From Rhodospirillales bacterium (GTDB taxonomy: Bacteria; Pseudomonadota; Alphaproteobacteria; Rhodospirillales; Magnetospirillaceae), in NCBI GenBank assembly GCA_014380005.1, contig JACMKT010000090.1:1-35145 (forward strand): a DNA stretch of 35,145 nucleotides, in the 5' to 3' direction. This document shows positions 2,900 through 22,801 of this stretch, piece after piece. The translations under genes and the position numbers were made by a program. A model generated the notes under the pieces. The model was not told the origin of the DNA. It worked only from the letters and a program-made list of their open reading frames with translations, and ran no database searches. Each line of letters begins with the position of its first letter. Positions within the stretch are counted from its first letter, which is position 1.

Positions 2900-3271
2900 A
2901 TGTCCTGCCGTTTCTTCGCCATCGCTGCGATTATGGGGCTCATGGGCTTTTCCGCCTGTGCGGCGCAGCCCGTGAGCATGGCGGAGATGGACCGGCTCCG
3001 TGCCCATGTGACCCGCTTTTGGGTTCCACCGGATGGCCTGACGGAGACCATCGACGTGCGGGTGAAATTGGCGCCCGATGGCAAGGTACTGAGTGCGGTG
3101 GTCGATGACGAGGCCACGCGTGCGCAGGATGAACTCTACGGGGCCGCCGCTCGCGCGGCGCGCCAAGCGGTGCGGTCGGCTAGCCCGCTGCCGATCCCGC
3201 CGGAAAAGGCTAGCCAGTTTGAAAAACTGGTTCTTTCATTCGCTCCACGAAACATACAGGGAAGGCGCTGA
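2900..3271 (+). CDS. Stand-alone exported TolA C-terminal-domain paralogue
   Basis: This 123-residue protein has an N-terminal export signal with a short hydrophobic stretch ending GFSACAAQ. The Cys could be a weak lipobox or part of a signal peptidase I site. The rest aligns over its whole length with the C-terminal domain of the preceding Tol[13 protein letters not shown] against SMTEMDRIRKHV, and [13 protein letters not shown] against VRVASPLPIPRDK. The membrane anchor and Pro-rich rod are missing. It starts 2 bases after the tolA stop and precedes tolB, so it is expressed with the Tol system. By inference it is a tandem duplicate of the TolA domain that could bind TolB or Pal in the periplasm; the actual role is unknown. 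Confidence 0.85.
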
Positions 3272-3332
3272 GCATGTACTGCCACGCTTGCCTCGTTCTT
3301 TCGCAATCAAGACCACACCAAGACTTGGGACG

Positions 3333-4676
3333 ATGACCATGCTCACGCGCCTTCGCCTTGCGGCCGCCGCCCTGGCCGTTGCCCTCATGGGAATGTTGGC
3401 GGTATCGCCGGCTTCCGCCGAGGTCCGCATCGACATCACGCGCGGCCATATGAAGCCGCTGCCCATCGCCATTCCCGACATCTTTGGCAACACGCCGCAG
3501 GAAAGTCAGGCGGGCAAGGACATCGCCCGCGTGGTGGCTGCCGATCTGGAGCGCTCGGGCCTGTTCAAGCCCATCGACCAGCGCGCCTTCATCCAGACCA
3601 GTGCTGCCTTGCAGGCCGGACCGCGCTTCCCCGATTGGAAGCAGATCAACGCCGAGGCCCTGGTGCAGGGCAAGGCCGAGATCGGCCCGGACGGCCGCAT
3701 GCGGGTGGAATTCCGGCTGTGGGACGTGTTCAACGAACAGCAGATGACCGGTCAGGCCTATACCGCTACGCCCCAGGGCTGGCGCCGGGTCGCCCATCTG
3801 ATCGCCGATTCCATCTATAAGCGGATCACCGGCGAGGATGGCTATTTCGATACCCAGATCGTCTATATCTCGGAATCCGGTCCCAAGAACGACCGCAAGA
3901 AGCGCCTCGCCATCATGGACCAGGACGGCGAGAACCATCGCTTCCTGACCGCCGGCGAAGAACTGGTGCTGACGCCGCGCTTCTCGCCGACCGCGCGCGA
4001 GATCACCTACATGTCCTATTACAAGGGCACGCCGCGCGTCTATGTGCTGCAGATCGACACCGCCCGGCGCGAGCTGCTGGGTGATTTTCCCGGCATGACC
4101 TTCGCCCCGCGCTTCTCGCCCGACGGTAACAAGGTGGTCATGAGCCTTGCCCAGGATGGCAATACCGAGATCTACGAGATGAATTTGATGACGCGCCAGA
4201 AGCGGCGCCTCACCAACCATATGGCCATCGATACCTCGCCCAGCTTCTCGCCGGATTCCCAGCGCATCGTCTTCAACTCGGATCGTGGCGGCGCCCAGCA
4301 GCTTTATGTGATGGACGCCGACGGCGGAAACGTCAGCCGCATCAGCTTTGGCGATGGCCGCTATGCAACGCCGGTATGGTCGCCGCGCGGTGATCTCATT
4401 GCCTTCACCAAGATGAAGAGCGGCGAATTCTTTATCGGCGTCATGCGTCCCGATGGCTCCGACGAGCGCCTGCTGGCCTCGGGATACCTTGTGGAAGGCC
4501 CCACATGGGCGCCCAATGGCCGCGTTCTGTCATTCTGGAAGGAGACCCAGTCGGACGAGCGGGGAAGGGGCGGTACATCCAAACTCTACACCGTCGACCT
4601 GACTGGCTTTAATGAAAGACAGGTAGTCACTCCGCTTGACGGGTCGGACCCTGCGTGGTCCCCCTTGATTCCTTAA
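3333..4676 (+). CDS. tolB: Tol-Pal system periplasmic beta-propeller protein TolB
   Basis: TolB is the periplasmic protein that links TolA to Pal. This 447-residue reading has a cleavable signal peptide ending SPASA, then the TolB N-terminal domain. A six-bladed WD40-like propeller follows, with repeated blade motifs such as [19 protein letters not shown] and [13 protein letters not shown]. The longer in-frame ORF starting at 3093 would run through the previous gene and is rejected. ATG codons at 3333 and 3339 are both possible: a GGGA lies 2 bases before the first and 8 before the second, so 3339 may be the real one. The 61-base gap after the TolA-like gene shows no terminator. Confidence 0.95.
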
Positions 4677-4693
4677 AACTTACTGAGTATAGT
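4665..4693 (+). promoter_or_regulatory. Probable sigma-70-type promoter for pal
   Basis: TTGATT at 4665-4670 and TATAGT at 4688-4693 are separated by exactly 17 bases. The -35 box lies in the last codons of tolB. Transcription would start near 4700 and give pal a leader of about 145 bases. Pal is normally far more abundant than the other Tol proteins, so a dedicated promoter makes biological sense. The call rests on sequence match only. Confidence 0.55.
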
Positions 4694-4717
4694 CCGCGCC
4701 GATTAGGATTTTTCCGA

Positions 4718-4747
4718 TGACAACGGGTCCTGCCGCGTGCGTTGTCA
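4718..4747 (+). other. Hairpin in the pal leader
   Basis: TGACAACG at 4718-4725 pairs perfectly with CGTTGTCA at 4740-4747 across a 14-base loop. It lies just downstream of the predicted pal transcription start. No T-tract follows, so it is not a terminator. It may stabilise or regulate the abundant pal mRNA; this is inference. Confidence 0.4.
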
Positions 4748-4843
4748 GAGGAAGCTCGCGTCGTCTCCGCATGGGGGCGGCGCGGCGTCCCTAAAGGTTC
4801 AAACTGCATCCCATACGGCGTTCCATTGAGGGGGTCCTCAAAT

Positions 4844-5338
4844 ATGAAACTGCGTTTCCTGAGCATTGTTGCCGCTGCCGCCCTGCTCGCGGCTTGTGAG
4901 TCGGCCCCCGAGGCCACCACCACCAACACCGGTACCGGTGCTGCCGCCCCGGCGGCTTCGAACACCAAGGCCATCGTTCCGGGCTCGGTTGAAGACTTCA
5001 TCGCCAACGTTGGCGATCGCGTGTTCTTCGACTACGACAAGTACTCGGTGCGTGCCGACGCCAAGGCGACTCTGGACAAGCAGGTTGCTTGGCTGAAGAA
5101 GTACCCGACCTACAACATCACCGTTGAAGGTCATGCCGACGAGCGCGGCACCCGTGAGCACAACCTTGCCCTGGGCGAGCGTCGTGCGAACTCCGTCAAG
5201 GAATACCTTGCCGCCAACGGCCTGCCGGCCGCTCGCGTCAAGACCATCTCCTACGGCAAGGAGCGCCCCGTCGCTCTGGGTTCGAACGAGGCCGCTTGGT
5301 CGCAGAACCGCCGTGGCGTGACCGTCCTCAGCAAGTAA
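4844..5338 (+). CDS. pal: Peptidoglycan-associated outer membrane lipoprotein Pal
   Basis: This 164-residue lipoprotein has a lipobox LLAAC (Cys18 becomes the acylated N-terminus) and a short Thr/Ala-rich linker. The OmpA-like peptidoglycan-binding domain carries the motif EGHADERGTREHNLALGERR. Pal ties the outer membrane to peptidoglycan and binds TolB. The start at 4844 has a strong ribosome site (GAGGGGG at 4828-4834). A longer in-frame ORF from 4742 is rejected because it would bury the signal peptide. Codon use favours common codons (for example gcc, ggc, aag), consistent with high expression. It has its own promoter and terminator. Confidence 0.97.
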   Translation: MKLRFLSIVAAAALLAACESAPEATTTNTGTGAAAPAASNTKAIVPGSVEDFIANVGDRVFFDYDKYSVRADAKATLDKQVAWLKKYPTYNITVEGHADERGTREHNLALGERRANSVKEYLAANGLPAARVKTISYGKERPVALGSNEAAWSQNRRGVTVLSK

Positions 5339-5367
5339 TTTGCTGAGCCGTTCGCGGACGTAAGTGG

Positions 5368-5426
5368 GGCGCCCGCCCTTCCGATGGTCATATAGACCGC
5401 CGGAACGGGCGGGCGCCTTATTTTTG
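5368..5426 (+). terminator. Intrinsic terminator after pal
   Basis: GGCGCCCGCCC at 5368-5378 pairs with GGGCGGGCGCC at 5407-5417. The pairing continues inside the stem through TTCCG/CGGAA and GGTC/GACC. The tail is TTATTTTT. It sits 30 bases after the pal stop and probably separates most pal transcripts from cpoB. Confidence 0.88.
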
Positions 5427-5489
5427 CCCGCATGATGGGCTAAGCCCATCTCCATGAATTTCCCGCCCGCAACGCCTCGCGAGGTTCCC

Positions 5490-6494
5490 GTGCGCCGCAT
5501 CGTCCTCATCCCCGCGCTTGCCGTGCTGCTTTCGCTTGGAGCAGGTGCCGCGCATGCTCAATACGACAACCGTGGTGTCTATGACCGCATCGACCGCCTA
5601 GAGCGCGATTTGCAGGTCATGCAGGCCCAGGCCGCCCGCGGCGGCCCCATGGTGGTCACCTCGCCCGCGCTTGGCGGTGGTGCTGGACGCGGTCCGGTCT
5701 CGTCTTCCTCGGAGCAGGCGCCCATGCCCGCCGGCCTTGCCGCCCGCCTGGACGACCGCGTCGATCAGCTGGAAGAGATGGTCCGCCATCTGACCGGCAA
5801 GCTTGAAGAAAACCAGTTCAAGACCGCCCAGATCGCCAAGCAGCTTGAACGCATGCAGGCCGACATGGAACTGCGCTTCAAGGATCTGCAGGCTGCGCAA
5901 GCCCCCGCCGCTACCATGCCGGGCGCCACTGCCACTGCGCCCGCCGCCGGCGACAAGATCAATCTGACCCCGCCCAAGGGCACCAACGGCGCCGATGCCG
6001 CCGGTCCGGCTCCCGGTCCGCAGACCTTGGGCACCATGCCTGAAAAGGACATGAAGAAGCTGCTGGCCCCGCAGACCGCCGCTGCCCCTGCGGCCCCGGC
6101 CAAGGCGCTGGACCCGCAGGCGGTGTATGAAGGCGCCTACGCGGCGGCCCAGTCGGGCGATTATGCCAATGCCGAGCGCGGCTTCACCGATTTTCTGGCC
6201 AAGAACCCCACCCACCAGCTGGCCGGCAACGCCCAGTACTGGCTGGGCGACATCGCCTATTCCAAAAAGGATTTCGGCACCGCCGCCGGCACCTTCCTGG
6301 ACGCCTACAAGAAGTTTCCCAAGCACACCAAGGCGCCGGACATGATCTACAAGGCCGGTTCCTCCTTCGGCCAATTGGGCAAGAAGAAGGAAGCCTGCAC
6401 CGCCTTCACCATCTTGTTCAACGACCACCCGCAGATGCCCGACCGGGTCAAGCGCGCGGCGGTGGCCGAAAAACAGAAATACGATTGCAAGTGA
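5490..6494 (+). CDS. cpoB: Tol-Pal coordinating periplasmic protein CpoB (YbgF)
   Basis: CpoB coordinates Tol-Pal constriction with septal peptidoglycan synthesis in the periplasm. This protein of about 334 residues has a signal peptide ending GAAHA, then an N-terminal coiled coil (heptad-like stretch from YDRIDRLERDLQ, then LDDRVDQLEEMV). An Ala/Pro-rich linker leads to C-terminal TPR repeats from about residue 210 (YEGAYAAAQSGDYANAERGF and following). The GTG at 5490 is chosen because GAGG lies 5 bases upstream and it places the signal peptide at the very N-terminus. The ATG at 5454 adds 12 residues and has no clear ribosome site. It is the last gene of the tol-pal cluster. Confidence 0.92.
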   Translation: MRRIVLIPALAVLLSLGAGAAHAQYDNRGVYDRIDRLERDLQVMQAQAARGGPMVVTSPALGGGAGRGPVSSSSEQAPMPAGLAARLDDRVDQLEEMVRHLTGKLEENQFKTAQIAKQLERMQADMELRFKDLQAAQAPAATMPGATATAPAAGDKINLTPPKGTNGADAAGPAPGPQTLGTMPEKDMKKLLAPQTAAAPAAPAKALDPQAVYEGAYAAAQSGDYANAERGFTDFLAKNPTHQLAGNAQYWLGDIAYSKKDFGTAAGTFLDAYKKFPKHTKAPDMIYKAGSSFGQLGKKKEACTAFTILFNDHPQMPDRVKRAAVAEKQKYDCK

Positions 6495-8082: not shown

Positions 8083-10002
8083 TTGAACTTCAGCAAGAAC
8101 CTGGCGCTGTGGATCATCATCGCCCTGCTGCTGGTGATGCTCTTCAATCTGTTCCAGACGTCCACGCCGCAGCGTGGGGTCGGGCAGACCGCCTTTTCCG
8201 ACTTCATAACCGAAGTCGATCGTGGCCAGGTGGCTGACGTCACCATCCAGGGCTATACCGTTTCGGGTCATTTCTCCGATGGCCGTCCGTTCAGCAGCTA
8301 TCTGCCGCCGGAAGCCAACATCGTGCCCAAGCTGCGCGAAGCGGGCGTCCGTATCTCGGCGGTGCCGCCGGCGGATGACCAGCCGACCCTGTGGGGCGTG
8401 CTGGTGTCATGGTTCCCCATGCTGCTGCTCATCGGTGTGTGGATCTTCTTCATGCGCCAGATGCAGTCCGGCGGCGGCAAGGCCATGGGCTTCGGCAAAA
8501 GCCGCGCCCGCCTGCTGACCGAGAAGACGGGCCGCGTCACCTTCGAGGACGTGGCGGGCATCGATGAAGCCAAGCAGGAGCTTGAGGAGATCGTCGAATT
8601 CCTCAAAGACCCGCAGAAATTCCAGCGCCTGGGCGGAAAGATCCCCAAGGGCTGTCTGCTGGTCGGCCCGCCCGGCACCGGTAAGACGCTGCTGGCCCGC
8701 GCCATTGCCGGTGAAGCCAATGTGCCGTTCTTCACCATCTCGGGCTCCGATTTCGTGGAAATGTTCGTGGGCGTCGGCGCCAGCCGCGTGCGCGACATGT
8801 TCGAGCAGGGCAAGAAGAACGCCCCCTGCATCATCTTCATTGACGAAATCGACGCTGTCGGCCGCCATCGCGGCGCCGGCCTGGGCGGCGGCAATGACGA
8901 ACGCGAGCAGACCCTGAACCAGTTGCTGGTGGAGATGGACGGCTTCGAATCCAACGAAGGCGTTATCCTGATCGCCGCCACCAACCGTCCCGACGTGCTG
9001 GACCCGGCCCTGCTGCGTCCGGGCCGCTTCGACCGTCAGGTGGTGGTGCCCAACCCGGACATCCTGGGCCGCGAGAAGATCCTCAAGGTCCATATGCGCA
9101 AGGTGCCCTTGGCCCCCGACGTGGAGCCCAAGATCATCGCCCGTGGCACTCCCGGTTTCTCCGGTGCCGATCTGTCCAATCTGGTCAACGAAGCCGCTTT
9201 GCTGGCGGCGCGCGCCGGTAAGCGGGTGGTGACCATGGCCGAGTTCGAATCGGCCAAGGACAAGGTGATGATGGGTGCGGAACGCCGCTCCATGGTCATG
9301 AGCGACGATGAAAAGCGTCTGACCGCCTATCACGAAGCCGGTCACGCCGTGGTGATGATGCATGCGCCGGGGCACGAGCCCCTGCACAAGGTCACCATCA
9401 TCCCCCGTGGCCGCGCCCTGGGCGTTACCATGTCGCTGCCCGAGCGTGACCGGTTGTCCATGAGCCTGCGCCAGTTGCGCGCCCTGATCGCCGCCTTCTT
9501 CGGTGGCCGCGTTGCCGAGGAAATGATCTTCGGTGCGGATTCGGTCACCACCGGCGCTTCCAACGATATCCACCGGGCCACCGATTTGGCCCGTAAGATG
9601 GTCACGGAATTCGGCTTCTCCGATAAGCTGGGGCCGTTGCGCTATGGCGATAATCAGGAAGAAGTGTTCCTCGGCCACTCGGTCACCCAGCACAAGAGCG
9701 TGTCGGACGTGACCGCCGGCCTGATCGATTCCGAAGTCCGCCGGTTCGTGGAGGAGGGCGCCGAGGCTGCCCGCAAGATCCTCACCGATCATATGGACGA
9801 GCTGGAGGCCATCGCTAAGGGTCTGCTGGAATACGAAACCCTGTCCCGCGACGACATCGACATCCTGATCCGGGGCGAAGCCCTGGTGCGCGAGGGGGGC
9901 TATGGCCGTCCCAAGGACGCACCGCGCCGGTCTTCGGTGCCCAGTTCGGGTCCGCAGCCGGGCGGGTTCGGCACCGACCCGGAGCCGTTGCCGAACCAGT
10001 AA
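8083..10002 (+). CDS. ftsH: ATP-dependent zinc metalloprotease FtsH
   Basis: FtsH is the membrane-anchored AAA+ protease that degrades unassembled membrane proteins and some regulators (RpoH and LpxC in relatives). This 639-residue protein has membrane helices near residues 7-24 and 105-125. Walker A GPPGTGKT is at 195-202, followed by Walker [12 protein letters not shown], the second region of homology ([19 protein letters not shown]) and the zinc site HEAGH at 417-421. A TTG start at 8083 is chosen because AGGAAGGG lies 7 bases upstream and it gives the usual N-terminus [10 protein letters not shown]; no ATG fits. An rpoH gene, encoding a classical FtsH substrate, lies about 21 kb downstream. 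Confidence 0.97.
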
Positions 10003-10013
10003 GTGGACTGAAG

Positions 10014-10092
10014 CGTCATTCCCGCGAAAGCGGGAATCCATGGCTGCCGTTTCCCGGTTCGGGCATGGACCCCCGCTTTCGCGGGGGTGACG
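10014..10092. repeat. REP-like palindromic repeat pair
   Basis: CATTCCCGCGAAAGCGGGAATCCATGG-type palindrome at 10014-10042 faces an inverted, diverged copy (CATGG, then CCCCCGCTTTCGCGGGGG, then TGACG) at 10065-10092. CGTCA and TGACG mark the outer ends. Each half has its own small hairpin. This CGTCATTCCCGC class is a well-known dispersed intergenic repeat in many proteobacteria. It lies just after the ftsH stop. Confidence 0.88.
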
Positions 10093-10104
10093 AGTGAATG
10101 AGAG

Positions 10105-10131
10105 ACGGGGCGGTCCATTGGGCCGCCCCGT
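10105..10131 (+). terminator. Terminator-like hairpin between ftsH and folP
   Basis: ACGGGGCGGTCC and GGCCGCCCCGT form an 11-bp stem around an ATTG loop, with one G-U pair. The tail CGCTGTTT is poor in T, so termination would be weak or absent. It ends 19 bases before the folP start and partly overlaps an in-frame upstream extension of folP, which argues against that longer start. Confidence 0.5.
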
Positions 10132-10150
10132 CGCTGTTTGGGAGAAGCCC

Positions 10151-11284
10151 ATGACCTCCGCCTTCCGCCGCAGCGCCGGCTTGCCTCGCGGGCTTGAGTG
10201 GCAGGACAAGCTGTCCGGCCTGTATCTGCTGCCCAGCGGCATCGTTTCCGGCGAACAGGCCGCCGCCGCCATCATCTCGGGCAATGGCTGGCCCATCGCC
10301 GACGGGCAACTGGCGTTCACCGCCGGGGCGGTGCTGCTGCGTGACGGCGCGCAGACGTGGCTGTCCATGGCGTCCTATTCCGAACTGGTGGATTGGGCCA
10401 ATATGGAGGGTGAGGACGTCGCCCGTCACATGGGCCAATTGGTCCGCCGTGTGGGCGCCCGCCGCCCTGCTTGGGCCGGGTTGGCGCTGGATAAGCCGCT
10501 GGTCATGGGCATCGTCAACACCACCCCCGACAGCTTCTCGGATGGCGGCGTCAATCTGGACCCGCGCGTCGCCATGGACCACGCCTTCGCCATGGTGGAG
10601 GCCGGTGCCCGCATCATCGACGTGGGCGGCGAATCCACTCGTCCCGGCGCAGCCCCGGTGCCCCACGAGGTGGAACTGGCCCGCGTGCTGCCGGTCATCC
10701 GTGCCCTGGCGGAAAAGGGCGTGGTGGTCAGCATCGATACCCGCCACGCTGCCGTGATGGGGCCGGCGGTGGAAGCCGGTGCCCGCATCATCAACGACGT
10801 CACCGCCCTGGAAGGCGACGGCGCGCTGGAGGTGGCCGCAAGCAGCGGCGCGGCAATCTGCCTGATGCACATGCAGGGCGAGCCGCAGACCATGCAGGCC
10901 GATCCCAGCTATGTTTGTGCCCCGTTGGACATCTACGATTATCTGGCCGGGCGCATTGCCGTGTGTGAAGCCGCCGGCATCCCCCGCGCCAAGATCGCCA
11001 CCGATCCCGGCATCGGTTTCGGCAAGACCATGGACCACAACGCCCAGCTTTTCGCCGCGCTGGCCCTCTACCACGGCCTGGGCTGCCCCATCCTGCTGGG
11101 CGCCAGCCGCAAAAGCGTCATCGCCAAAATGAGCAAGGGTGAGGGGGCGGGCGACCGCCTGCCCGGCACCCTGGCCGCCCATTTGTCCGGTCTGGATGCG
11201 GGCGCCCAGATTATCCGCGTGCATGACGTGGCCGAGACCGTGCAGGCGGTTAAGGTGTGGCAGGCGATCCGGGCGGGGGGGTAG
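10151..11284 (+). CDS. folP: Dihydropteroate synthase FolP with N-terminal extension
   Basis: FolP condenses p-aminobenzoate with hydroxymethyl-dihydropterin diphosphate in folate synthesis. At 377 residues it is about 100 longer than the typical enzyme. The TIM-barrel core starts near residue 117 with GIVNTTPDSFSDGG and continues with DVGGESTRPGA, SIDTRHA, INDVTAL, DPGIGFGKT and LLGASRKS. All family motifs are present. The first ~115 residues form a separate segment I cannot assign. The ATG at 10151 has GGGAG six bases upstream; an earlier in-frame ATG at 10094 would read through the hairpin. The order ftsH-folP-glmM matches that of E. coli. Confidence 0.93.
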   Translation: MTSAFRRSAGLPRGLEWQDKLSGLYLLPSGIVSGEQAAAAIISGNGWPIADGQLAFTAGAVLLRDGAQTWLSMASYSELVDWANMEGEDVARHMGQLVRRVGARRPAWAGLALDKPLVMGIVNTTPDSFSDGGVNLDPRVAMDHAFAMVEAGARIIDVGGESTRPGAAPVPHEVELARVLPVIRALAEKGVVVSIDTRHAAVMGPAVEAGARIINDVTALEGDGALEVAASSGAAICLMHMQGEPQTMQADPSYVCAPLDIYDYLAGRIAVCEAAGIPRAKIATDPGIGFGKTMDHNAQLFAALALYHGLGCPILLGASRKSVIAKMSKGEGAGDRLPGTLAAHLSGLDAGAQIIRVHDVAETVQAVKVWQAIRAGG

Positions 11285-11294
11285 AAAAACTATT

Positions 11295-11376
11295 CACCAC
11301 AAAGGCACAAAGGACACGAAGACACCTGCTGAACTCTCTTTGTGTTCTTTGTGTTCTTTGTGTCTTTGTGGTGGAA
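11295..11376. repeat. Inverted array of short units (ACACAAAGA type)
   Basis: The left arm at 11295-11325 begins CACCACAAAGGCACAAAGG and continues with diverged units. The right arm at 11339-11376 consists of tandem CTTTGTGTT units and ends CTTTGTGGTGG, the complement of the left outer end. The architecture matches the ACACGAATGA arrays at 6554 and 17240, but the unit sequence differs. It fills the gap between the folP stop and the end of the reverse-strand gene at 11382. Confidence 0.82.
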
Positions 11377-11381
11377 CCTTC

Positions 11382-12149
11382 CTACCGCACAACCAACGCC
11401 GCCAACGGCGCCGGCGATACCGCGCTGGGCTGCAGATACGGATTGCCCTGCACCAGCACGATGGCGGCGGTCGGCGCGGCTGCTGCGGCGAACAGCAGGA
11501 CGGCCAGGAATTCGGCCTTGGGCTGGTCCACATAGACCATGGCGATGGAGATCATGGTCAGCAGGCCCAGGAAGGCCATGCCCAGCCATTTCAGTGGGTT
11601 GACGTGGGTTTGGCTCAGCGCGATGCGCTGTTCGCGGGCGCCGCGCGCCAAAATGGCCTGTTCCAGCAGATGGGCGTGGGAGGTGGCGCTCAGTGCCTTG
11701 GCGACCTCGGTGCTGGACAGTACTTCCAGCAGACCGGCCAGGGCCTCGCCGGTATCGGCGCTGCCTTGGCGGTCGGCGAGGCGGGGCCATTCCTCGTCCA
11801 CGCTCAGGCGCACATAGCGTTGCAGCGCCCCGTCCACTTTGTCCCGCGTGACCGTGGGCAGATGGCGCGACAGGGCCTGGATGCTGCGCAGAGAGCCCGC
11901 TTCCTGGAAGGTGGTGTTGGTGGCGCGGTCGTGGGCGTTCCAGGTGTCGTTGGCCAGGAAGGCCAGGGTCAGGGCGAACAGCACGCCGATGACGTTGACG
12001 AAGGGCGGCGACAGACCGCGGAACTGACGGATAAAACTGGCGTGACGCGAATGCCCCAACCACAGCAAGACCGCACCGGCTCCTAATGTTCCGAACAGGG
12101 CGATGGCCGCCAGCAGGTAATGGTCATAGGCATGGAGCATTTGGGGCAT
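11382..12149 (-). CDS. Membrane protein, bestrophin-like (DUF4239 type)
   Basis: This 255-residue protein has two N-terminal membrane helices (around YLLAAIALFGTLGAGAVLLW and PPFVNVIGVLFALTLAFLA). A soluble helical middle region follows, then two C-terminal helices (LKWLGMAFLGLLTMISIAMVYV and AEFLAVLLFAAAAAPTAAIV). The layout and the FRGLSPPFVNVIGVLFAL stretch resemble DUF4239 proteins, a bestrophin-like family of unknown function. The start at 12149 has AAGGA 8 bases upstream on the reverse strand. It lies against the direction of its neighbours and splits the otherwise conserved folP-glmM pair. Family assignment is from memory and moderate. Confidence 0.72.
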   Translation of the reverse strand: MPQMLHAYDHYLLAAIALFGTLGAGAVLLWLGHSRHASFIRQFRGLSPPFVNVIGVLFALTLAFLANDTWNAHDRATNTTFQEAGSLRSIQALSRHLPTVTRDKVDGALQRYVRLSVDEEWPRLADRQGSADTGEALAGLLEVLSSTEVAKALSATSHAHLLEQAILARGAREQRIALSQTHVNPLKWLGMAFLGLLTMISIAMVYVDQPKAEFLAVLLFAAAAAPTAAIVLVQGNPYLQPSAVSPAPLAALVVR

Positions 12150-18169: not shown

Positions 18170-20050
18170 GTGGAACACGCTGCTGCCGCCGTGAGTGCCA
18201 GTCCGCAAATGTGGCTGACCCTGGGTCTGCTGGCCCTGGCGCTGGTGCTTTATGTCAGCGAAAAGCTGTCGGTGGAGGTCGTCTCCATCGGCATGCTGTC
18301 GGTGATGATGCTGGTCTTCCACCTGATGCCGGTGACCGGCCCCACCGGCAAGAACCTGCTGTCTCCCGAGGTGCTGCTGGGCGGCTTCGGCAATCCGGCG
18401 CTGCTGACCGTCATGGCCTTGCTGGTGGTGGCCGAGGCGCTGACCCGCACCGGGGCTTTGGACCGGCTGGCGGACCGGGTCGGCCATCTGAAATTGCCGC
18501 GCTGGGGTGTGGTGCTGGCCGCGCTGACCGTGGTCTGCGTCACCAGCGCCTTCATCAACGATACTCCTGTGGTTGTCATGTTCCTGCCGGTCATGCAGGC
18601 CCTGGCCATGCGCGGCGGCATGTCGCCGTCCCGCGTGATGATGCCGCTGTCCTTCGCCGCCATCCTGGGCGGCATGACCACCTTGATCGGTTCCAGCACC
18701 AATCTTTTGGTGTCGTCGTCGCTGATCGCCCAAGGCGTGCCCGGTCTGGGCTTCTTCGAGCAGACTCCCATGGGCGTGCTGCTGGCGGGAGTGGGCTTTG
18801 CCTACATGGTGCTGGTCATGCCCCGGTTGCTGCCGCGCGGACCCATGGGCCATGCCGGTCATTTGCTGACCCAGGGCAAGCAATTCGTGTCCCAATGCAC
18901 AGTGCCCGCCGGTTCAGTGCTGGAAGGCGAGGTCGCTGCCGCCGGCACCTTCCGCTCGCTGCCCGACATCACCGTGCATCTGATCGTGCGCGATGACGAT
19001 CCGGTGTTCCCGCCCTATGACGACGTGCAGCTTAAGGCCGGCGATGTGCTGATGCTGGCCGGCACGCGCAAGGCCCTGGCCGACACCGCCGCCCATTTCC
19101 CCGGTTTGCTGTCCCTGCCCGAACGGACCGATGATGACAAGTCCGAGGAAGACGACGACCGCCCCATCCGCATCCGCGAAACCGACGCCTCCGCCGATGA
19201 AAAGGTGCTGGTGGAGGCCATGATCCCGCCGACCTCGCGCTTCACCGGCTTCTCGGTGGATCAGTTGGGGCTGCAACGGCAAAATCTGGTGGTGGTGGGC
19301 ATCGAGCGCCGTGCCCGCATGATGCGCGGCCCGACCACGGAAATCCGCCTGCAAGCGGGCGACGTGCTGCTGCTGCTGGGCCGCTGGGGCGACATCGACG
19401 AATTGCGGGCCGAGCGTGATCTGGTGGTGGTCTCCGGCACCGCCGGGACCCTGGCCAAGGTCCACCACGCCGGCACCGCCGGCCTGATCTTCCTGGGCAT
19501 GGTCGCCCTCTCGGCCTTCGGCATCCTGCCCATCGCCATCGCCGCCTTGGGTGCCGCCACCTTGCTGGTGGCCCTGAAAGCCCTAAGCCCGCGCCAAGCC
19601 ATCCGCGCCATCGATCACAAAGTGGTCCTGCTGGTGGGCAACGCCCTGGCCCTGGGCGAGGCTCTGGACGCCACCGGCGGCGCCGCCTATCTGGCCCACC
19701 ACATGCTGGCGGTCATGGGCGATGTGGGGCCGTGGGGCGCCATGGTGGCCTTCTTCGGATTGGTGGCCGTGGTCACCAACGTGCTGTCCAACAACGCCTG
19801 CGCCGTCCTGTTCACCCCCATCGGCATCGGCATCGCCCGCCAATTGGGCGTGGACCCCCATCTGTTCGCCATCGCTACCATCCTGGCGTCCAATTGCTCT
19901 TTCGCGACCCCCATCGGCTATCAGACCAATCTGCTGGTCATGGGACCGGGCCATTACCGCTTCGCCGATTATGCTAAGGCGGGATTGCCGTTGATGCTGC
20001 TGTTGTGGGCGGTGTTCGCATTGGGGGCGAAGGTGGTTTGGGGGCTGTGA
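18170..20050 (+). CDS. SLC13/DASS-type ion transporter with two RCK_C domains
   Basis: This 626-residue inner membrane transporter has about five N-terminal helices and a cytoplasmic insert. The insert holds two TrkA-C (RCK_C) domains at about residues 240-305 and 343-420, separated by an acidic linker. More helices follow. NDTPVVVMFLPV (130-141), GSSTNLL (174-180) and the C-terminal ATPIGYQTNLLV are the paired substrate/Na-binding motifs of the divalent anion:Na symporter family. Proteins of this layout are often labelled sulfate or citrate permeases; the substrate here is unknown. A GTG start is used, with GGGAG seven bases upstream. Confidence 0.88.
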   Translation: MEHAAAAVSASPQMWLTLGLLALALVLYVSEKLSVEVVSIGMLSVMMLVFHLMPVTGPTGKNLLSPEVLLGGFGNPALLTVMALLVVAEALTRTGALDRLADRVGHLKLPRWGVVLAALTVVCVTSAFINDTPVVVMFLPVMQALAMRGGMSPSRVMMPLSFAAILGGMTTLIGSSTNLLVSSSLIAQGVPGLGFFEQTPMGVLLAGVGFAYMVLVMPRLLPRGPMGHAGHLLTQGKQFVSQCTVPAGSVLEGEVAAAGTFRSLPDITVHLIVRDDDPVFPPYDDVQLKAGDVLMLAGTRKALADTAAHFPGLLSLPERTDDDKSEEDDDRPIRIRETDASADEKVLVEAMIPPTSRFTGFSVDQLGLQRQNLVVVGIERRARMMRGPTTEIRLQAGDVLLLLGRWGDIDELRAERDLVVVSGTAGTLAKVHHAGTAGLIFLGMVALSAFGILPIAIAALGAATLLVALKALSPRQAIRAIDHKVVLLVGNALALGEALDATGGAAYLAHHMLAVMGDVGPWGAMVAFFGLVAVVTNVLSNNACAVLFTPIGIGIARQLGVDPHLFAIATILASNCSFATPIGYQTNLLVMGPGHYRFADYAKAGLPLMLLLWAVFALGAKVVWGL

Positions 20051-20068
20051 GGGGAGCCGCGTCCGGTC

Positions 20069-20074
20069 TATAAT
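20069..20074 (+). promoter_or_regulatory. Possible -10 box upstream of the nucleotidyltransferase gene
   Basis: A perfect TATAAT lies 27 bases before the gene at 20101, just after the transporter stop. No good -35 hexamer is seen at 16-18 bases spacing, so this is only a weak promoter candidate. Confidence 0.35.
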
Positions 20075-20100
20075 CCCCGCAGGCAGAACGGTGAACCGCC

Positions 20101-20394
20101 ATGCGTACCCTCGACGACATCATGAGCCAGCTTCGGGCGTTGCAACCCGACCTCAAACGCCGATACCCCATCCACGAGATGGGCGTGTTTGGCTCGTATG
20201 TGCGGGGCGAGCAGCGCGACGACAGCGATCTCGACGTGCTGGTGGAGCTGGGTGATGGGGTCACCTTGATCGATTACGTCGGTCTTCAGCTTGAGCTGTC
20301 GGATGCGCTGGGGCTCAAGGTTGATCTTGCCAACAAGAAGATGCTGAAGCGACGGATCGGGCAGAGGATTTTGTCCGAGGTGAGGACGCTGTGA
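20101..20394 (+). CDS. MNT-type minimal nucleotidyltransferase (antitoxin-like)
   Basis: This 97-residue protein is a minimal nucleotidyltransferase domain. GSYVRG at residues 31-36 is followed by the metal-binding DSDLDVLVE (Asp43, Asp45) and a third Asp at 75 (LKVDLANKK). Proteins of this type usually act as the antitoxin of HEPN/MNT pairs, adding AMP groups to the HEPN toxin. The HEPN partner is normally the next, overlapping gene. Here the overlapping GTG at 20391 runs only five codons to a stop, and no HEPN protein follows. GC content is near that of the housekeeping genes, unlike the next gene. Confidence 0.88.
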   Translation: MRTLDDIMSQLRALQPDLKRRYPIHEMGVFGSYVRGEQRDDSDLDVLVELGDGVTLIDYVGLQLELSDALGLKVDLANKKMLKRRIGQRILSEVRTL

Positions 20395-20462
20395 TTCGGG
20401 GGCTGTAGAGATGCTTGTGAAGCAGAAAGATCATCTTGGCATTGTTAATGGATTAATCGGCA

Positions 20463-21425
20463 ATGGAAGATAATAAGAGGGTTATCAAGGCTAGAGATAG
20501 GCTTGCTCACCTGCTTAGCTTGGAAAATCCTGTTGAGGCGGAGTTCCAATCTCTTTTCAATGAAAATAAATTTATTTTAACTAGTTCGTTGCTTCTTGGT
20601 TTGCCGGAGGATAAGTTAAAGTCCGCGCGTCCAGGCAGAGCAGAAGCTGACTTTTATTTTTACCAAGACAGCCTGCTATCTCCATATGGCGTAATTGAAC
20701 TTAAGAGGCCGTCTGCGCAAATTTGGATGTCGCCTCGGAAAGGTGTTTTTTGCTTGCACTCTGACGCCTATAAGGCGCTTTCCCAGGCTGGAAAGTATTG
20801 TGATGACATAAAGAATAATATTATAAATCACAGAAGAAACAAGCGGGTGATTGGTGATAACCGTTTAATGTTTGTTATTGCTGGTCGATGCGGTGAGGCG
20901 GAGCGGAAATTTGGTGATAATTTCATTATGCCAGAGCGCCATTTGATTCTTCCAGGTGGTGGTGCTATTTACACATATGATCAAGTTTTTGAATTTTTAG
21001 ACGAACAATGTCCTGAGCTAATAAGTGTTATTTATCCACTTCAAGAGTTTTCTCTGGATCAGGCTGTTTTTTTATCCAAACAAGTGGGTGATATGTTTTC
21101 TAAATTTAATATTTTAGAAGATGAAAAATATATCTATGGAGCTTATGGCAATTACACTTCTAAGCATCTAGTGTGCGGAGATTGTGGGGCGGATTATGTA
21201 TTTTCTGCTGCGGAGCAGGAATTTTATGCATCAAAAGATTTGTCAGCGCCGAGGCGGTGCGGAAATTGCAGAAAAACGAAAAGAGCTATGAGAGCGATTG
21301 CACCGCGTAGAGATACTATTACAACATGTGTTCAGTGTGGAACATATATTACTGTGCCGTTTGTCCCTGATGGGACGAGGCCAATTTTGTGCCGTGATTG
21401 CTTTGCAGCGTCGCGTACTCGATAG
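20463..21425 (+). CDS. Shedu-like (DUF4263) nuclease with two C-terminal zinc ribbons
   Basis: This 320-residue protein opens with a helix and NPVEAEFQSLFNENKFIL, the style of DUF4263 N-termini. A probable PD-(D/E)XK core follows: Asp63 in EADFYF and Glu79-Leu-Lys81 in GVIELKRP. Two zinc ribbons end the protein: Cys238/241/266/269 in a zf-trcl-like module (DYVFSAAEQEFY) and Cys289/292/310/313 in a second ribbon ending PILCRDCF. Shedu proteins are single-gene phage-defence nucleases; the double ribbon tail is unusual to me. Sampled stretches are 27-33% GC, against over 70% in serC, and codons are AT-rich, so recent transfer is likely. The start has no strong ribosome site. Not matched to a database. 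Confidence 0.75.
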   Translation: MEDNKRVIKARDRLAHLLSLENPVEAEFQSLFNENKFILTSSLLLGLPEDKLKSARPGRAEADFYFYQDSLLSPYGVIELKRPSAQIWMSPRKGVFCLHSDAYKALSQAGKYCDDIKNNIINHRRNKRVIGDNRLMFVIAGRCGEAERKFGDNFIMPERHLILPGGGAIYTYDQVFEFLDEQCPELISVIYPLQEFSLDQAVFLSKQVGDMFSKFNILEDEKYIYGAYGNYTSKHLVCGDCGADYVFSAAEQEFYASKDLSAPRRCGNCRKTKRAMRAIAPRRDTITTCVQCGTYITVPFVPDGTRPILCRDCFAASRTR

Positions 21426-21534
21426 TTGTTCGTAGTATCTAATAAAATATTTTTTTCCTGGAGTATGTTGGCGGTAGTCGCTGTTGCATGGCCCCCACCC
21501 CCGCCACCATCCCAAAATGTCTCCAACACGCCGC

Positions 21535-21622: not shown

Positions 21623-22801
21623 ATGACTGAGCTTTCGCGGCCGGCTGTTCGGCCCGCTAATCCCAATTTTTCGTCCGGTCCCTGCGCCAAGCGTCCCGGT
21701 TGGTCCCTTGAGGTCCTGTCCGATACGCCCGTGGGCCGGTCCCATCGTGCCAAGATCGGCAAAGCCAAGCTGGAAGAGGTGATCAACCGCACCCGCTCCG
21801 TGCTGGGCATTCCCGCCGATTACCGCATCGGCATCGTGCCGGCCTCGGACACCGGTGCCGTCGAGATGGCGCTGTGGTCGTTGCTCGGCCAGCGCGGCGT
21901 GGACATGTTGTCGTGGGAAAGCTTCGGTGATGGCTGGGTGACCGATGTCACCAAGCAGCTGAAGCTGGAAGACGTGCGCGTGTTCAAGGCGCCCTACGGC
22001 CAGCTGCCCGATCTCTCCCAGCCCGACTTCGACCGTGACGTGGTGTTCACCTGGAACGGCACCACCGGCGGCGTCCGCGTTCCCAATGGCGATTGGATCA
22101 AATCCGACCGCCAGGGCCTGACCATTTGCGACGCCACCTCGGCGGTGTTCGCCATGGACATGCCGTGGGACAAGCTGGATGTGGTCACGTGGTCGTGGCA
22201 GAAGGTGCTGGGCGGCGAAGGCGCGCACGGCATGCTGGTGCTCAGCCCCCGCGCCGTGGAGCGTCTGGTCACCTACAAGCCGTCTTGGCCGCTGCCGAAG
22301 ATTTTCCGCCTGACCTCGGGTGGCAAGCTTTCGGAAGGCATCTTCAAGGGCGAGACCATCAACACCCCGTCCATGCTGGCCGTCGAAGATCAGATCGACG
22401 CGCTGAAATGGTCGGAATCCCTGGGTGGTCTCAAGGGTCTGATCGCCCGTTCCGATGCCAACCTCAAGGCGTTGCAGGCTTGGCTGGACAAGTCCGCCTG
22501 GGCCGAGAATCTGGCTAAGGATCCGGCGGTGCGTTCCACCACCTCCATCTGCATCGCCATCAAGGCGCCGTTCTTCGCCAAACTGTCCGCCGACGATCAG
22601 GCGGCGGCGGCCAAGAAGATCGTCACCTTGCTGGATAAGGAAGCGGTGGCCTATGACATCGGCGCCTATCGCGATGCCCCTCCGGGTCTGCGCGTGTGGG
22701 GCGGTGCCACCGTGGAAACCAAGGACATCGAAGCGTTGACGCCGTGGCTGGACTGGGCCTTCGCCCAGGTCGAAGCGGAGTTCGCGCCCAAGGTTCAATA
22801 A
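21623..22801 (+). CDS. serC: Phosphoserine aminotransferase SerC
   Basis: SerC is the PLP enzyme that converts 3-phosphohydroxypyruvate and glutamate to phosphoserine. This 392-residue protein is of the longer alphaproteobacterial/archaeal-like type. The N-terminal [12 protein letters not shown] is the substrate-side motif. Asp in [11 protein letters not shown] contacts the PLP ring, and the Schiff-base Lys lies in [14 protein letters not shown] strong ribosome site, GAGGGAGGG, lies 8 bases before the ATG. It is followed by serA 69 bases later, so the two successive enzymes of serine synthesis probably form one operon. Confidence 0.96.

Follow-up and report, generated by a model that had tools for sequence, protein, structure and literature searches.

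A Shedu-type nuclease with its catalytic domain at the N-terminus and a double zinc-ribbon tail in a Rhodospirillales genome

A 320-aa protein encoded in a Rhodospirillales genome joins an N-terminal Shedu/SduA-type nuclease domain to a C-terminal double zinc ribbon, an arrangement opposite to that usual in Shedu. The gene lies at 20463..21425 (+; ATG start, stop included) of the window, the 35,145-nt stretch of contig JACMKT010000090.1 that was analysed, and forms one frame without stops across 320 codons. Its product is probably a Shedu effector of nuclease-first type, acquired by horizontal transfer and acting as a single protein; a role in defence, DNA cleavage, gating and zinc binding are predicted for it. 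Counted in favour of this reading are the SduA homology, the intact motifs, the reversed order, the foreign composition, the absence from the relatives searched, and an upstream nucleotidyltransferase that is itself a PADLOC candidate; the fusion is known here from a single protein and the nuclease-first plan from a single further relative, which counts against it.

The preliminary description of this locus had named a Shedu-like nuclease fused to two different zinc ribbons. The open reading frame, Asp63 and Glu79-x-Lys81 that it listed are present in the sequence, while the reversed order, the derivation of the tail from a complete free-standing family and the existence of a distant nuclease-first relative with another tail go beyond it.

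The nuclease domain and its position

The nuclease domain, with D63, E79 and K81 as putative catalytic residues and with Q108, spans approximately aa 7-181 (20481..21005, +; hhalign columns 7-181). PADLOC SduA matched aa 9-125 (8.6e-6), after which 193-195 residues remain in the fusion protein, against 63-76 positions in the five profiles listed. The DUF4263 profile check proposed in the preliminary description also returned a match, SduA_C (PF14082) at aa 25-122 (1.9e-5), but with 25.3 bits, just below the curated cut-off of 27. In hhalign, a profile of the window protein and its nuclease-first relative (L034, from a Planctomycetota MAG, JAJFFG010000093.1; 27% identity over aa 4-220, E 5e-15) aligned with ten SduA-family domains over 169 columns at a probability of 98.6% (E 4.9e-16). 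The window sequence alone reached 97.2% (E 3.5e-11) against the same set, which includes two rows (L029 and L031) without the usual E-x-K, and an earlier run with two extra wrong-frame rows gave 98.5%. Across 100 column shuffles the best probability was 5.3% and the best E 0.0074, with 0.1% for reversed rows; a chance match to SduA is ruled out by the shuffles, and the Shedu-like character claimed for this half is borne out.

E25, Q29, F32, L39, G58, D63, E79 and K81 were invariant in all six aligned sequences, and Q108 matches the Shedu rows wherever these extend to its column. Neither of the structural outcomes that were to discredit the initial reading, a missing DUF4263/PD-(D/E)XK match or an unconserved Asp/Glu/Lys triad, was found. 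Profile A9, comprising three of the Shedu rows, matched solved SduA structures (8ti8, E 5.3e-38; 8ps4, E 1.9e-7). Among PDB sequences, neither the window sequence nor the two-row profile gave an SduA match, which counts against the Shedu reading. Judged from these alignments, the nuclease half is a divergent SduA/DUF4263 PD-(D/E)XK domain in which the predicted catalytic residues are present.

Structure prediction was poor in both attempts, a point against the Shedu reading. A first AlphaFold model (pLDDT 44.6) was uninformative for the nuclease half, with pLDDT 78-88 in the last 40 residues. A second model reached pLDDT 48.7 and pTM 0.45; because Shedu sequences were part of the input alignment, its resemblance to Shedu is not independent evidence. 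With this low-confidence model, Foldseek placed chains of Bacillus cereus Shedu at ranks 1-7 (best E 6.6e-4), and the top VIA-align row was 8ti9 (Z 5.3, rmsd 4.1, 144 aligned), and the nickase Nt.BspD6I (Z 5.0) scored on a par with it; a Z below 8 can mean no more than a common arrangement.

Two accounts (PMC12904381, PMC12137116) describe Shedu as a single nuclease core under the control of diverse N-terminal domains. The window protein shares with Shedu/SduA (PF14082, DUF4263; B. cereus 8ti8/8ti9, E. coli 8ps4/8ps5) the PD-(D/E)XK domain with D, E-x-K and Q; unlike them, it carries the nuclease N-terminally, has no N-terminal sensor, ends in zinc ribbons and falls below the Pfam cut-off. The position of the motif was measured in 13 proteins. 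E-x-K starts at residue 77 of 320 in the fusion protein, leaving 243 residues, and at residue 81 in L034, leaving 273, whereas in 8/8 complete Shedus with the motif it starts at residue 205-370, 113-139 residues from the C-terminus; this count leaves out L029 and L031, in which the search pattern used detected no E-x-K, and the interrupted L032. Type I Shedu is recognised by an N-terminal sensor domain ahead of the nuclease, which the fusion protein lacks; it belongs to the Shedu nuclease superfamily but not to Type I as defined by that domain. A Vibrio cholerae Shedu, VcSduA, likewise joins the nuclease to an unrelated module, which is N-terminal and enzymatic (PMC12137116), whereas the module of the window protein is C-terminal and of zinc-ribbon type. 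Literature searches that did not extend to Gu 2025 and Loeff 2025, the principal papers on Shedu, where C-terminal modules may already be catalogued, returned no paper joining DUF4263 with a zinc ribbon and nothing under the name type II Shedu.

Among the other proteins gathered for these comparisons, L029 and L031 match PF14082 with an E-x-E-like sequence in place of E-x-K and are possibly inactive or altered Shedu relatives. L032 (1-1374) is a Shedu gene on an IMG/VR contig, broken by an in-frame stop inside the nuclease domain.

The zinc-ribbon tail

The eight cysteines noted initially are arranged, as described, in two CxxC...CxxC modules, and the modules indeed belong to different families, with all three profile matches above their cut-offs. 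The first zinc ribbon/treble clef (aa 234-276; 21162..21290, +; C238, C241, C266 and C269, CxxC-x24-CxxC) matches zf_Tbcl PF13451 (1e-13, 51.4 bits, cut-off 24). The second (aa 286-317; 21318..21413, +; C289, C292, C310 and C313, CxxC-x17-CxxC) matches zf_Tbcl_2 PF23477 (3.3e-11, 43.1 bits, cut-off 27) and the TIGR04272 CxxC-x17-CxxC model (7.2e-12, 44.8 bits, cut-off 36). Between nuclease and tail lies a segment (aa 182-230; 21006..21152, +) that can be aligned to L034 until about aa 205; its remainder is read as a linker of approximate extent. A relationship of the tail to RNase P component 4 was dropped (E 0.093, below significance).

From aa 231 to 320 (21153..21422, +), the tail aligns end to end with two free-standing double zinc-ribbon proteins at 42-47% identity, and the eight cysteines are invariant in 3/3 aligned sequences. 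The EQEFYA and RPxxCxxCF motifs are common to the tail and the free-standing protein (e.g. WP_187028406.1 from Pusillibacter faecalis), which occurs in Clostridia and on viral contigs. All five free-standing homologues read are short unfused frames, whereas the tail here is fused to a nuclease; four of them measure 99-104 codons from stop to stop, and the fifth 156 codons, with an annotated gene of 279 nt. By homology the tail corresponds to an entire free-standing double zinc-ribbon protein and would be expected to bind zinc. zf_Tbcl is present in 6 of 299 genomes of the phylum; in the five proteins other than the fusion, zf_Tbcl was the sole Pfam match and PADLOC gave none. Name-based literature searches returned no paper on the function of this free-standing family.

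Genomic setting and distribution

The AT-rich patch reported earlier is evident, as GC content is about 0.41 (41.4%) in the fusion gene and about 0.64 (61-67%) in the flanks. Third-codon-position GC in three parts of the gene is 0.37, 0.21 and 0.36, against 0.82 in the gene at 21623 and 0.86 in the gene at 18170. A promoter scan gave one site, at the end of the fusion gene, where 2.0 were expected, and five terminator-like sites were found against 2.1 expected. PHROGs held no family for the fusion protein.

The gene order is a CitMHS-type transporter, a nucleotidyltransferase, the fusion gene, serC and a D-3-phosphoglycerate dehydrogenase gene, serC being so called from its size and place, with no Pfam match. 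The loci of 19 relatives were compared over approximately 1.5 kb on each side of serC, and a transporter match stood upstream of serC in eight. The transporter-serC gap, transporter stop codon included, measures 1575 nt in the window against 125 nt in one of these relatives (L041); it is 68-125 nt in six of the eight; L040 has 1007 nt filled with other content, and the more distant L057 (transporter match 54% over 48 aa) has 1355 nt. At 1e-5, none of the 19 loci gave a match to the nucleotidyltransferase or to the fusion protein. Because the gaps differ and both proteins lack matches there, a stretch of approximately 1.45 kb (~20051..21496, right edge by eye), absent from the gap of the relatives, looks lineage-specific. 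A plain assembly artefact was ruled out, as the transporter and SerC flanks share 80-90% identity with their counterparts in the two closest loci of the same genus that have both genes together. The approximately 1 kb of different content at the same site in the close relative L040 suggests that the site may be a variable spot.

The upstream gene (20101..20394, +) encodes a 97-aa MntA-like nucleotidyltransferase (PF01909, 4e-14; PADLOC PDC-S09, 4e-26) with a GS..DxD motif recognised by eye. It scored 43.4 bits against the MntA model, below the cut-off of 60, and no HEPN gene lies next to it, its neighbours being the transporter and the fusion gene; it thus lacks both features by which an MntA-HepT type VII toxin-antitoxin pair would be recognised. 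That the fusion protein is instead a toxin-like nuclease regulated by this nucleotidyltransferase, in a two-gene unit, appears very improbable. The two genes share their orientation, are 68 nt apart and lie within the lineage-specific stretch, and no HEPN gene stands directly beside the nucleotidyltransferase, all of which speaks for such a unit. The third-position GC of the nucleotidyltransferase is however host-like (0.79) and that of the nuclease is not, so that the two may have arrived separately. At the L034 locus, an ORF at 797-1732, approximately 6 kb upstream, shows a nucleotidyltransferase-like GS..DxD stretch by eye, but has no Pfam or PADLOC support as such, and five to six other ORFs scanned there (with Pfam and/or PADLOC, one with PADLOC only) include no nucleotidyltransferase.

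At E 1e-3, the only genome that matched the window protein was its own, both among 385 genomes of the class and among 55 of the family. Four of 398 phylum genomes matched at E 0.01, its own included; of the other three matches, L021 is a zinc-ribbon protein, L022 a conventional Shedu and L023 is interrupted by a stop. Searching 199 genomes of the order gave 41 matches at the loose limit of E 1 and only its own below 0.001, and a profile search of 190 class genomes at E 0.01 gave three matches, one in its own genome, one to a conventional Shedu (L036) and one interrupted by stops. No like fusion was present among the relatives read, the weak order-level matches having been read in part. In tblastn searches, the full protein found zinc-ribbon matches only (three plasmid records and one phage record), and the tail alone three plasmid and two phage records; among plasmids, neither the nuclease half nor L034 had a match. 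In IMG/VR no relative was confirmed with the window protein, A1, A7 (window and L034 nuclease domain) or L036 as query; A2 and A4 led to one conventional Shedu on one contig, profile A9 to three conventional Shedus, and the tail to L038. L034 itself, one of 187 candidate stretches, is the sole relative confirmed by a single genome-collection scan, which undersamples relatives because its two patterns omitted the E-x-K motif. Pfam family searches undercount as well, since they missed the window's own gene at first look.

This sparse distribution bears on whether the gene is a recent chance fusion or degenerate cargo without present function. Such an origin would account for a single fused sequence that is absent from all other genomes searched with it and whose composition is far from that of its host, yet it seems improbable, given that both halves are complete, the catalytic residues and all eight cysteines are intact, and the frame is open without stops.

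Proposed mechanism and the nuclease-first relative

In the nuclease-first effector favoured here, the SduA-type PD-(D/E)XK domain would cut DNA through D63, E79 and K81, as their alignment suggests, and the double zinc ribbon would most likely act as the sensor. Its ligand may be a protein or, as a first guess, a nucleic acid, in either case one that becomes available when a phage or plasmid enters the cell. For E. coli Shedu, PMC12904381 describes a tetramer whose N-terminal clamp binds DNA ends, which releases the nuclease to cut at a fixed distance. By analogy, as the window protein has no room for an N-terminal sensor, its C-terminal zinc tail is the likeliest candidate for that role.

The L034 protein shares with the window protein the nuclease-first plan, 27-30% identity over aa ~4-205 and the GR.E.DF and ELK motifs; it differs in its C-terminal part, which has no CxxC modules and, scanned alone (137 aa), no Pfam match. 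Because the same plan is combined with a different C-terminal part, the C-terminus is suggested to be a swappable sensor position in the nuclease-first branch. The earlier proposal of a distinct Shedu subtype has behind it two nuclease-first sequences whose tails differ, one of them carrying the zinc-ribbon fusion. We regard as evenly poised the broader proposal of a separate nuclease-first Shedu branch, in which the place of the N-terminal sensors is taken by exchangeable modules at the C-terminus (here a captured double zinc-ribbon protein) and the zinc module reads the trigger from the other side of the nuclease. If true, the nuclease core of Shedu could be gated from either side, wider search models would be called for, the window protein and L034 both lying below the Pfam cut-off, and a testable function would be offered for the free-standing zinc-ribbon family.

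The genes scanned around the lineage-specific stretch are metabolic, transport and chemotaxis genes, with no large defence island, which counts against the defence reading. As an alternative, an SduA-type nuclease might have been co-opted for work outside defence, for instance in DNA repair or mobile-element upkeep, its zinc tail simply serving to bind DNA. In keeping with this, the gene is isolated, the six flanking genes scanned being metabolic, transport, chemotaxis or unassigned, and on a clostridial plasmid one homologue of the free-standing zinc-ribbon type is encoded two genes past ruvB. Recruitment of this kind is nevertheless unlikely, as the gene is sporadic, foreign-looking and not found in the relatives searched, a conflict-system protein lies near L034, and the DUF4263 nucleases whose function is known to us, EcSduA and VcSduA, act in defence (PMC12904381, PMC12137116). 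In the latter, VcSduA has an N-terminal GHKL ATPase, and the nuclease substitution K557A abolishes protection.

For the nuclease-first effector, the main hint of a conflict setting comes from the surroundings of L034, a single locus. They include a GT4-conflict/trypsin-like/phosphorylase protein (2921-5929, -) that also has a PADLOC effector match (6e-18), and a serine recombinase (9684-11588, +) within approximately 8 kb of the nuclease-first relative. The ORF adjoining the L034 gene gave a weak PADLOC match only (E 0.004) and no Pfam match, which counts against the effector reading. A radical-SAM protein (1653-2726, +) matched PADLOC viperin (3e-14), which perhaps reflects just the common radical-SAM core.
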